A stretch of DNA of 10,702 nucleotides from assembly GCA_002732675.1 (NCBI GenBank), contig NVRR01000087.1, forward strand, positions 1-10,702. The letters are read 5' to 3'. Below, piece by piece: positions 1-4,399 of the stretch (within the stretch, counting starts at the first letter, position 1; every line of letters starts with the position of its first letter). The DNA comes from Sneathiella sp. (GTDB lineage: Bacteria > Pseudomonadota > Alphaproteobacteria > Sneathiellales > Sneathiellaceae). The position numbers and the translations under genes were made by a program. The notes beneath the pieces were generated by a model. The model was not told where the DNA came from, did no database searches, and worked only from the letters and a program-made list of their open reading frames with translations.

Positions 1-606
1 CTGCTCAAATGTTTTTTCCACGCCCTTGCTGCTGACGACCGTCGTTGCGACCGACGCAGGCACAGTTTCAGGTTCGGCGGGCATGCCAGCTTTCGTCTCA
101 GCTACCTTTTCTTCGGCAGAACTGGGCACCGCTTTAGGTTCTGCTGGTTCGACAGTCTCCGTGACGACTGTCGCCGTTTCCGTGACAACCGCCGCCGGGG
201 GTTCCACCGCCTCGACGGTCTCGGTGACAGCCGTAACCGTTTCCGTGACAACAGTCGTCGCTTCCGTGACCGTCACCTCCTCCTCAACGACCTCGGTTAC
301 GACGGTGGACAACACCGGTAGAGGGGCTTGAACAGAGGTATCGGCGCGCAAGATTTCATCTGTATAGCGGGCATTTTTACGATCCGCCCTCAATCCTTCT
401 TCAATCTCTCCGGCATCTTCGTCAATCGCCGTCTTGTCCGGGCTGGCTGGAACCGAATTCAATGTTGGGAATTCATCTGCTTTCTCGTCCGCTGTGTCCG
501 TAGCACAGGCCGAGACCAATAATGACATCGCCAATAAAACGATACCCGCATGACAAAAAAACAGCCTGTTAAGCCGTTCGCAAAAGGAATTAAAAACTCG
601 AGCCAT
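1..606 (-). CDS. Repeat-containing envelope lipoprotein (3' end outside window)
   Basis: I read 202 codons from an ATG at 606 down to base 1 with no stop, so the C-terminus is missing. Residues 1-34 form a signal peptide ending in a lipobox (LVSAC), which predicts a lipid-anchored protein exported to the cell envelope. After it comes an acidic stretch with FPTLNSVPASP and ADRKNARYTDEILRAD. From memory, that pattern occurs in alphaproteobacterial lipoproteins that end in an OmpA-like peptidoglycan-binding domain. Then follows a low-complexity region rich in Val, Thr, Glu and Pro, with two copies of a 15-residue unit of the form xVVTETxTxVTETVE. Such a region is probably an extended linker. Function cannot be assigned without the C-terminus. 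An in-frame GTG lies one codon upstream, and no strong ribosome binding site decides between the two. It is divergent from phaC. The plus-strand open frame across the repeats is an antisense shadow. Confidence 0.72.
   Translation of the reverse strand, partial: MARVFNSFCERLNRLFFCHAGIVLLAMSLLVSACATDTADEKADEFPTLNSVPASPDKTAIDEDAGEIEEGLRADRKNARYTDEILRADTSVQAPLPVLSTVVTEVVEEEVTVTEATTVVTETVTAVTETVEAVEPPAAVVTETATVVTETVEPAEPKAVPSSAEEKVAETKAGMPAEPETVPASVATTVVSSKGVEKTFEQ
149..252. repeat. Imperfect direct repeat, 63-bp period, in the lipoprotein gene
   Basis: Two copies of about 41 bp start at 149 and 212. They share the run GTTTCCGTGACAAC and, on the minus strand, both encode the VVTETxTxVTETVE unit. 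The period is 21 codons, so gain or loss of a unit would keep the frame. Related shorter motifs continue to about 300. Confidence 0.6.
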
Positions 607-834
607 CACATCGCCAGTCACGTAATTTACTTTTACCAGTTTGTGGTTCGGTAAAGAAATACAACATTTTGATTTAACTTACCTAAATTCGAAGATATCA
701 TAAAGCATATGGGCGACAAATCCGCAACGTTTTCTACAAGCGTCATGTATTAAGAATATCTTTTTTCTGGCCGCTTTTAATCGTAACTATTAGTCCCTTG
801 CGAGCCTCCAACCTCTAACTGAACGGGTGCCATT
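607..834. other. Divergent intergenic region, lipoprotein / phaC
   Basis: This 228-bp A+T-rich stretch must carry the promoters of both flanking genes. I saw no -35/-10 pair convincing enough to list and no inverted repeat. In particular I saw no paired CTGC...GCAG motif of the kind I would look for as a PhaR-type operator. Confidence 0.5.
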
Positions 835-2663: not shown

Positions 2664-3308
2664 TTATTTAGCGTCAACGCGATAGTCGTCAGGCACGAAG
2701 AAAATGTGGTCCAGTGATTTTTTGGCGGCGTGGCAAGCGATGCAGAATTCTACATTTTCTGCGTTCTCGCCTTTCGTCATGCCAAAAATACTCCCGTCGG
2801 GCAAGACCATCGTATAGCGCCAATCGCCACTTTTTCCGTTAAAACCGCTGTTCATTTTTTCCATGAGGAACAACGCTCCAGGATATACATGTCGGTCGGA
2901 TGTCACTGAAAAGCTGCCCTTGGCAAGGATGGAACCTTCGGGATAAGTCTCGCCTTTTTTGAGCGACCCGTAGTCATGAGCAATCATGTTGGCATAATTG
3001 TTGACATAACGCGCACCGTGGGTTGCTGAAATATAGGGGGCTTTGTTATACCGTTGCCAGCTCGTATATTTTGCAGCAGCGCCGATATCAGATTGCGCGA
3101 AGATAGCGCGAATATCTGGCAGCACGGTCTGATAAATCTTCTCAGCTTGCTGCTTGGTCAGATTGGCGGGGTCAGAGAGCTCAATATGCCCGATCGGCTT
3201 ATCGCCGGTATCTGCTTGTGCCTGAACGGCGCCAGGGAGAAAGGCGCAGAACAGGCACAGATAAGTCGCGATAAGACTGTTTTTTGTCCTGAGGGTAAAT
3301 GAGGTCAT
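2664..3308 (-). CDS. Secreted cytochrome P460-family haem protein (short paralogue)
   Basis: This 214-aa protein has a signal peptide (residues 1-30, cleavage near AVQA) and one c-type haem site, CIACH, at 189-193, so it should be periplasmic with a covalent haem. The layout matches the cytochrome P460 family: a central THGARYVNNYAN block, GSILAKGSFSV, LFLMEKM, a GDWRYTMVLPDG strand pair, then CxxCH near the C-terminus. Characterised P460 enzymes oxidise hydroxylamine, and cytochrome c'-beta relatives bind NO. The substrate here is unknown. Lys130 in ILAKGSF sits where I would place the haem cross-linking lysine of P460, by eye only. The ATG at 3308 was chosen because it gives a proper signal peptide and has GAAAGG 6 nt upstream. 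A longer frame from GTG at 3395 adds 29 residues unlike a leader. It lies 86 bp downstream of its Cys-rich paralogue and is probably co-transcribed with it. Confidence 0.85.
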   Translation of the reverse strand: MTSFTLRTKNSLIATYLCLFCAFLPGAVQAQADTGDKPIGHIELSDPANLTKQQAEKIYQTVLPDIRAIFAQSDIGAAAKYTSWQRYNKAPYISATHGARYVNNYANMIAHDYGSLKKGETYPEGSILAKGSFSVTSDRHVYPGALFLMEKMNSGFNGKSGDWRYTMVLPDGSIFGMTKGENAENVEFCIACHAAKKSLDHIFFVPDDYRVDAK

Positions 3309-3394: not shown

Positions 3395-4399
3395 CTAATT
3401 GACGCGGTATTCTTCCGGTAAGAAGAACAAGCTATCAGTATCTTCCGCCGCCATGTGGCATTCGTAGCAGAATGTAACGGCCTCAGTACCCGTACTATTT
3501 GTCGTGCCGACGGTCTGCCCATTTGGCAAGATCAGCGTGTATTTCCAATCGCCACTTGCCTTGCTAAAGCCAGCCGCCATTTTTTCCATTACGAACAAAG
3601 GCCCGACAACGGCCCGCCCGTCGGTTTGAACCGCGAAACTATCCTTAGCGAGCACGGAGCCAACCGGCATCCTGCCATTTTCTTCATATTTAAGGTAAGC
3701 TTCCTCAGCCACCGCGTTGGCATAATTACTAACATGTCGCCCACCATGGGTTCCCGATGCATAGGGTGCCGTCGAGAACACTTTCCAATCCGTATAATAT
3801 GTGGCGTGATCCAGCCCTGATTTCGCATAGGAATTCTTCATATCCGCTTTCAGGCAGTCATATGTGGCATTGGCTTCAGCGGGCTCAAGCTCCACGTCCG
3901 CCATGGCAGACGCGCCGCAGGGTCCGCACGGGTTACAAGGGTTGCTGGCAGCACAAGGGTTCTTGGCGGCGCATGGATTACAGGGATTGCAGGCTTTCTT
4001 CGCCGCACATGGGTTGCAGGCGCCACAAGCGCTTGGCTTCTTCGCCGCGCAAGGATTGCAGGCCGCCGCTTTCTGAACAGAGGGGACAACACAGTTTGCG
4101 CTACTTTTCGCCGCGCAAGGATTACAGGCATTTGCCGCGCAAGGGTTCTTGGCAGCACATGGATTGCAGGCTTTCTTGGCGGCGCAAGGATTGCACGCAC
4201 CGCAGGGTTTTTTAGCAGCACATGGGTTGCAGGCGTTGGCTGGCTTCTTCGCCGCACATGGGTTACATGCCGCCGCGGCGGGCTTCACCGTCATCAAAGA
4301 TACCGGTACGGCCACCGTTGCCACCGCAATTAATCCGCCGACACCCATCAAGGCCGGAATGAAGGTCGTTGATAAAAGCTTTCCCTGAAATGACGGCAT
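3395..4399 (-). CDS. Cysteine-repeat cytochrome P460-family protein
   Basis: This 334-aa exported protein has three parts. Residues 1-44 are a signal sequence with a hydrophobic core at about 14-35 and an AAAA cleavage region. Residues 45-161 are a low-complexity array with 25 cysteines, made of variants of CNPCAAKKx and NPCAAx. Residues about 170-334 are a P460-family domain with the haem motif CYECH at 311-315. That domain aligns by eye over its whole length with the neighbouring short paralogue ([42 protein letters not shown]), with Lys252 at the possible haem cross-link position. The haem domain should be periplasmic. The CNPC array could bind soft metals such as copper or zinc, or form many disulfides; this is inference. 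The ATG at 4399 was chosen because GGGAGAG lies 7 nt upstream. The alternative GTG at 4432 falls inside a palindrome. It is the first gene of the pair and ends TAG at 3395. Confidence 0.85.
3917..4267 (-). repeat. CNPCAAK cysteine-repeat array
   Basis: This stretch encodes residues 45-161 of the P460 fusion: about ten CNPC units (one pair sharing a cysteine) separated by [13 protein letters not shown] or similar spacers of 9-22 residues. There are 25 Cys in 117 residues. The DNA repeats with it, which is why long shadow frames rich in AAHGLQ-like words appear on the other strand. Confidence 0.9.

Follow-up and report, generated by a model that had tools for sequence, protein, structure and literature searches.

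The product of a Sneathiella sp. gene, which we call the array-P460 protein, combines a long array of regularly spaced cysteines with a c-type haem domain that is, by its Pfam profile, a member of the P460/cytochrome c'-beta superfamily. The array is real, old and widespread, and it is an independent module, used on several exported proteins. Together with its recurrent partners, a DUF6969 protein and an FGE-like protein, we place it among the exported Cys-rich buffering systems, as a new variant with a function that we infer, and not among the bufferins. As a tentative reading, quite possible if somewhat short of probable, we propose that the array, once exported, holds soft metals as thiolates, with copper the first candidate; it would be served by dedicated partners, resemble bufferins without their MNIO enzyme and be coupled through its haem to redox or NO stress.

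The window (the whole stretch of DNA analysed, 10,702 nucleotides) belongs to a metagenome-assembled genome that is 65.9% complete, whose nearest relatives by sequence and gene order are a Proteobacteria bin and several Sneathiella. The array-P460 gene is read on the minus strand from an ATG at 4399 to a stop codon at 3395-3397 (Table 1). The initial annotation had described 25 cysteines in residues 45-161, ahead of a P460 domain carrying a CYECH element, and both the count and the profile bear this out: exactly 25 of the 28 cysteines in the protein fall within that stretch of 117 residues, which leaves C182 and the CYECH pair, and the match to PF16694 (E 5.5e-11; its 43.4 bits exceed the cut-off of 27) spans profile positions 3-124 of 125. 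The N-terminus resembles a Sec signal sequence, with a K near the start (KLLSTT...), a hydrophobic stretch and an Ala-rich end (PAAAA) ahead of C45. A second P460 gene follows 86 bases downstream on the same strand; its product has the same Lys, His and Phe positions as the array-P460 protein. A promoter and terminator scan gave a signal of about chance level. An open reading frame at 1-621 (minus strand) runs off the edge of the window; its product begins like a lipoprotein (LLVSACA) and contains a repeat rich in Val, Thr and Glu, and a related gene comes after phaC in seven Sneathiella-like loci.

Table 1. Coordinates of the array-P460 gene, its parts and the adjoining P460 gene in the window.
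Feature	Position	Strand	Detail or basis
Array-P460 gene	3395..4399	minus	334 aa + stop
Signal-sequence-like N-terminus, residues 1-44	4268..4399	minus	sequence
Cys array, residues 45-161	3917..4267	minus	25 Cys, nine CNPC, eight CNPCAAK units
Central element CVVPSV, residues 103-108	4076..4093	minus	divides the array into two halves
Cytochrome_P460 domain PF16694, residues 201-325	3425..3799	minus	Pfam profile
H218	3746..3748	minus	aligned with capping Phe32 of M. capsulatus cytochrome c'-beta
K252	3644..3646	minus	aligned with c'-beta Phe61 and the cross-linking Lys of N. europaea P460
F269	3593..3595	minus	aligned with c'-beta Gly82, the place of the P460 distal carboxylate
CYECH haem c attachment motif, residues 311-315	3455..3469	minus	sequence
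Second P460 protein, without array, 214 aa, CIACH	2664..3308	minus	PF16694, E 1.6e-10

The units had been described as near-regular, and their regularity stood while their uniformity did not. In 120 proteins listed among the 1252 matches of a full-length search (our own protein, P0001, included), 3476 of the 4022 Cys-Cys gaps of at most 15 residues (86%) are multiples of three, versus 26% in residue shuffles. The array is nevertheless divided into two halves, around CVVPSV in our protein, by a conserved C-x-[VI]-P-[RS]-[LV] element; the relaxed form of this motif, C-x-[VILF]-[PE]-[RSKQ]-[LVIAM], occurs in 119 of the 120 listed proteins and at 68 of the best 80 of 233 P460 loci (see below). All 120 proteins have CNPC-type motifs and CxxCH, in a search whose ranking favours array-bearing proteins; they contain 20-62 cysteines each, and the length of the array varies. 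Its spacers are of low complexity (Ala/Asn/Pro/Lys), with next to no Met (0.14% of array residues), His (0.03%) or acidic residues (Asp/Glu, 0.19%). A recent expansion of a DNA repeat can be ruled out: Tandem Repeats Finder reported no repeat within the array-P460 gene, and the eight CNPCAAK units are each coded differently, their third-position identity (0.43) being that of independent codons (0.45, as expected from the codon usage of five other genes of the window). The repeat is therefore old, and its Cys spacing is maintained by selection on the protein.

A search of genome contigs with the P460 domain alone retrieved 233 relatives. Counting an array where there are three or more array motifs, 77 of the best 80 of these 233 carry one; two of the remaining three (L062 and L078) have no motif, and L072 has one motif and 13 cysteines. 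These numbers rule out an isolated fusion or an assembly artefact, and the absence of the array from all close orthologues, which the initial annotation had named as counting against its own reading, is not what we observed. The fusion is thus common, the array occurs elsewhere as well, and the record titles of the relatives read Alphaproteobacteria, Rhodospirillales, Sneathiella, Kiloniellales and similar, some just Proteobacteria. A plasmid search gave no match. In P0128 and similar array-P460 proteins, a LysM domain is placed between array units, which hints at attachment to peptidoglycan.

Three positions of the haem pocket, those of K252, H218 and F269, are invariant (Lys, His and Phe, 91/91 each) in 91 proteins selected from the 120 listed, P0001 included. 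The underlying alignments with cytochrome c'-beta and with N. europaea P460 (NeP460; its cross-linking Lys numbered by hand count) are weak (E 0.007 and 0.04). The register of the c'-beta alignment is supported by entry 7zqz, which differs at exactly the place aligned with Phe61 and which is, in the part of PMC11928373 available to us, the F61V variant of cytochrome c'-beta. NeP460 has a gap at the distal-carboxylate position, so the reading of F269 rests on the c'-beta alignment. By that alignment, the carboxylate (Glu96/Asp102) is absent and replaced by Phe in 91/91 proteins, and the capping residue is in 91/91 a His, neither Phe nor Arg; Phe and Arg are the capping residues given for known P460 and c'-beta proteins in the available part of PMC11928373, where His is not listed. 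The same part of that paper links the distal carboxylate to NH2OH oxidation in P460, and describes NsP460 as having the Lys, no carboxylate and no hydroxylamine oxidation. With the Lys kept and Phe at the carboxylate position, our domain comes nearest to NsP460 in its table, and would be a cross-link-competent, NsP460-like P460 without the distal carboxylate. A hydroxylamine oxidase, the first guess for a P460 domain, has F269 against it, and the link to hydroxylamine drawn initially is not sustained. With the superfamily, the protein shares the P460 profile match and CxxCH and, with P460 proper, a Lys at the cross-link position; it differs by the fused N-terminal array, the His cap and the Phe at the carboxylate position.

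Related genomes also have clusters of CNPC motifs at a distance from P460 genes. In 20 such stretches that we read, the array-only proteins are 79-135 aa long as called (their starts being uncertain) and have a signal-like N-terminus. One type adjoins DUF6969; L089 (in G011, 100% complete) and L090 (in G004, 86%) contain an array-only protein, and no P460 relative was found in either genome. A second type has a pyridine nucleotide-disulfide oxidoreductase on one side and a sensor kinase on the other, and the source genome has it too (L099). The protein there (L099:1980-2228, on G000:C42) has 82 aa, with a HAMP sensor kinase and, upstream of the oxidoreductase, a VTT-domain gene as its other neighbours; L087, L088, L098 and L105 look alike in arrangement, the Pfam assignments being those of L099.

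Furthermore, in a second protein search, a SoxA/TsdA-like cytochrome c turned up that is flanked by the array on one side or on both, and the array was also seen together with LysM. The Pfam matches of this cytochrome c are weak: three of six scanned proteins exceed the SoxA-TsdA cut-off and one of the six that of CCP_MauG. Close matches to it (E up to 3.3e-33) occur in 12 of the 398 genomes of a phylum sample; nine of the 12 carry the Cys array, G761 and G522 have Glu/Ala/Gly repeats without Cys in its place, and G476 has no array. Among individual loci, L161 carries the array and L166 does not; viral contigs gave no confirmed cytochrome c fusion. The loci of the array-type cytochrome c genes with Cys-free Glu/Ala/Gly repeats are L186:4987-5700 and L187:5095-5991; the two genomes with such versions are 100% complete, and DUF6969 was not found in them.

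DUF6969 is present in five of the nine cytochrome c array genomes, adjacent in G733, G462, G749 and G736 and on another contig in G472, versus none of the three without a Cys array, numbers that are small; G462 (array, DUF6969) and G522 (Cys-free, no DUF6969) belong to one genus. No DUF6969 was found in G364 and G421 (99-100% complete), whose NPCAAK arrays are sparse, nor in G632 (67%) and G647 (57%), which have the cytochrome c array. Two of the 12 genomes, G733 and G749, have the FGE-like family proper (E about 1e-138).

That the array serves specifically as a leader or reservoir for the P460 haem domain, for instance supplying metal or electrons for the Lys-haem cross-link, is very unlikely in our estimate. 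The frequency of the fusion among the best P460 relatives speaks for it; against it, the array is found without P460 and also accompanies a cytochrome c that belongs to a different family, while the adjoining second P460 protein keeps the Lys position and has no array. The idea of a metal-delivery module dedicated to the haem protein, raised at the outset, is therefore not supported.

One branch of the cytochrome c proteins departs from the usual composition. At eight loci of one family (L169-L176), the repeats contain Met, and in seven of them His too, as in NPCSMKKHNPC (for L174, composition was measured over part of the array); as read from these repeats, the Cys/Met/His set fits the ligand set expected for copper. 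No DUF6969 was seen within the short flanks examined at these loci. At L169 and several others of the eight, the next gene encodes about 400 aa with a CAQC(H) element. A long, length-variable and conserved array, with a Met/His branch that fits a soft metal, upholds the preference of the initial annotation for repeated thiol sites over ordinary folding disulfides.

A purely structural role, in which the array would form an extended, disulfide-cross-linked stalk or matrix, keratin- or cornifin-like, that keeps the haem domain off the membrane or in the cell wall, seems unlikely to us. It would suit the low-complexity spacers, the LysM domain between array units in some versions and the Cornifin and Amelogenin Pfam matches to the array, which are probably compositional, and the Cys-free repeats of L186 and L187 show that a spacer role is possible without Cys. 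The prevalence of gaps that are multiples of three and the retention of Cys as the length varies argue otherwise, as do the array-only proteins, which have nothing to hold, the co-occurrence of array genes with DUF6969, and the two complete genomes in which Cys-free versions go without DUF6969.

The two partners lie outside the window and emerged from the gene neighbourhoods of the best 80 of the 233 P460 loci, with open reading frames called by a simple script that may have missed some neighbours. DUF6969 (PF22308) occurs at 30 of these loci and the FGE-like gene (PF03781) at 25, both together at 23; where at least 5 kb upstream and at least 3 kb downstream are available, 24 of 49 loci have one or both. 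Seven different gene orders occur, loci with one partner counted, so the link between the array and its partners survives rearrangement.

The association with DUF6969 is also seen genome-wide. Flagging genomes of 385 Alphaproteobacteria by at least three hits to the CNPC pattern on the same strand, we found DUF6969 in 38 of 41 flagged genomes versus 51 of 344 others, a comparison for which the Fisher test ignores phylogeny. Two flagged genomes do not have real arrays (in G171 the hits are 1.3 kb apart, in G317 they are on three contigs); DUF6969 is present in 37 of the 39 credible ones, the misses being our own incomplete genome and G147. Taking 173 families, DUF6969 is held by all 18 with a credible array versus 26 of 155 others, again with a Fisher test that ignores phylogeny. 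Within the genus of the window, it occurs in 19 of 23 other genomes, and the four congeners without it (G005, G006, G010 and G013) have at most one CNPC hit each. DUF6969 was not found in our own genome, which is 65.9% complete; the FGE-like gene of this genome lies at the edge of contig C148, where a DUF6969 gene following it, as in G022, would be cut off.

DUF6969 also keeps company with other Cys-repeat proteins. We picked by hand 20 DUF6969 loci without a credible CNPC array, 19 from the 51 unflagged DUF6969 genomes plus the one in G171, mostly with weaker DUF6969 scores. At eight of these, from seven families, another Cys-repeat protein is encoded nearby, with, for example, CSPCGAAKANPC or CCAAEGCC repeats; six adjoin DUF6969 and two lie at a distance of 1.3-1.6 kb from it (a script filter picked out seven, and one, at L145, was noticed by eye). 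L101 has such a neighbour too. No Cys-repeat neighbour was seen at the other 12 of the 20, and a filter hit farther from DUF6969 at L150 was dismissed as a likely chance frame. P460-related genes without CxxCH and without a Cys array stand beside DUF6969 at L108:2429-3550 and L132:76-1212.

The DUF6969 protein is His-rich, and an alignment of 18 chosen sequences has invariant HYP, HxH and GHFH elements and further invariant His and Asp. As no signal sequence is evident, it is probably cytosolic. A PDB search with it returned two matches (E 0.04 and 1.8), both of which we read as chance. The invariant His and Asp, together with the lack of an evident signal, lead us to regard it as a putative metalloenzyme or escort acting before export. 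In openly licensed PMC literature we found no assigned function for the array or for DUF6969, nor for the fused architecture, in agreement with the initial annotation.

The FGE-like gene is found within 1.5 kb at 18 of the 30 best-scoring DUF6969 loci, and it is missing from several near-complete genomes with arrays and DUF6969 (e.g., G001, G003, G017 and G021). Its product looks exported and matches PF03781 (E 8.3e-42) and, by profile, the solved ToxD, CalU17, SUMF2, OvsA, FGE and EgtB, a likeness to the FGE/SUMF1 fold. It is FGE-like by its predicted fold: the signature GGSWDD[KS]GCG[VI]CR is particular to the partner family, and a GCGxC Cys pair near the C-terminus is invariant in 23/23 rows of an alignment of 23 of the 25 genes (L023, an over-long frame, and L030, truncated, were left out). 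The active site of FGE itself is a copper-binding Cys pair, and the motif that FGE recognises is CxPxR; the array has C-x-P and no CxPxR.

Many cysteines and a capacity to store soft metals also characterise Csp and metallothioneins; the array differs from these in its repeat and in its fusion to a c-type haem, and the array-P460 protein has no Csp or metallothionein Pfam match at E up to 0.01. The closer comparison is with bufferins. In the part of PMC12452194 available to us, bufferins and oxazolins are MNIO-modified, Sec-exported Cys-rich RiPPs; bufferins are exported copper chelators, fusions to Cytochrom_C and FGE-sulfatase domains occur in a few of them, 58 Cys are counted in one EGKCG-type protein, and FGEs are termed cuproenzymes. 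As far as that part goes, the bufferin fusions and the cuproenzyme FGE are an independent sign that Cys-rich buffers, cytochromes and the FGE fold go together. The array proteins resemble the bufferins described there in being Cys-rich and putatively exported, in their variable repeat number and dedicated partners, and in their haem and FGE links. They differ in having no MNIO near the arrays, in their CNPC repeat, which is neither EGKCG nor Buf_6/12Cys, and in their partners, DUF6969 and the FGE-like protein.

We reject membership of the bufferins on the distribution of MNIO (PF05114), which was found neither in our own genome, as far as it is complete, nor in the array-bearing G001, G003, G008, G017, G018 and G021 (98-100% complete). 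It is present in nine of 22 array-bearing relatives, where a different contig, or a distance of more than 100 kb, separates it from the arrays and DUF6969. MNIO enzymes thus seem not to be needed by the array system. One genome without a flagged CNPC array, G028, has an MNIO gene (G028:C8:141792-142583; locus L137) less than 5 kb from DUF6969 and a small NPC-repeat protein, and the two systems may meet there.

The remaining neighbours of the best 80 of the 233 loci include a YeeE/YedE-type sulfur transporter (PF04143) at 10 loci, MsrB at seven and a cytochrome c at eight, and at L094 a rhodanese and a YeeE-like gene are near DUF6969. No recognised copper protein is among the neighbours scanned with Pfam. 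At L089:2543-3037, L104:3742-4239 and eight further loci, YeeE and Cys arrays are accompanied by a protein family (about 165-190 aa) that has a CQF element and matches nothing in Pfam.

These neighbours point toward sulfur rather than copper, which counts against the metal reading, and they favour a sulfur or redox capacitor, in which the CNPC dithiols would cycle between thiol, disulfide and persulfide and serve as a periplasmic store of sulfane sulfur or oxidising equivalents, which electrons would enter or leave by way of the haem. The SoxA/TsdA-like nature of the other haem partner, the c-type haem of both and the oxidoreductase and sensor kinase flanking array-only proteins would agree with such a device. 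We nonetheless consider it rather unlikely: metal accounts better for the Met/His-enriched branch, the available part of PMC12452194 terms FGE, after which the partner's fold is named, a cuproenzyme, and no periplasmic electron donors for so many dithiols were identified.

Our preferred reading, soft-metal binding outside the cytoplasm, draws on the density, softness and repetition of the dithiols, on the variant with Cys, Met and His and on the resemblance to bufferins. The two halves of the CNPC dithiol array, placed ahead of the P460-fold c-haem domain in a putatively exported protein, would bind several soft metal ions as thiolates, Cu(I) first and possibly Zn, Cd or Hg, and so serve as a sink for them or buffer them, either in the periplasm or at the cell surface. 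DUF6969 may modify or escort the array before export, and the FGE-like protein may act on it afterwards. The haem domain, with a Lys-cross-linked P460 centre, would bind NO or another small ligand, or pass electrons, and would couple the array to redox or NO stress and not to hydroxylamine oxidation. On the whole, the initial interpretation is partly supported.

A wider proposal, which we hold to be somewhat unlikely, is that DUF6969 is an unrecognised class of metal-dependent enzyme modifying the cysteines of exported Cys-repeat proteins, which the FGE-like protein would finish outside, so that Proteobacteria would make RiPP-like, haem-coupled metal or sulfur buffers independently of MNIO. 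If this is true, DUF6969 and the GCGxC branch of the FGE fold, here without a described role, would gain a substrate, and a common proteobacterial system of exported Cys-repeat proteins would be a bufferin-like device without MNIO, often wired to a c-type haem. The occurrence of the array alone or on an unrelated haem protein, often with DUF6969, suggests an undescribed extracytoplasmic system for holding metal or reactive sulfur.
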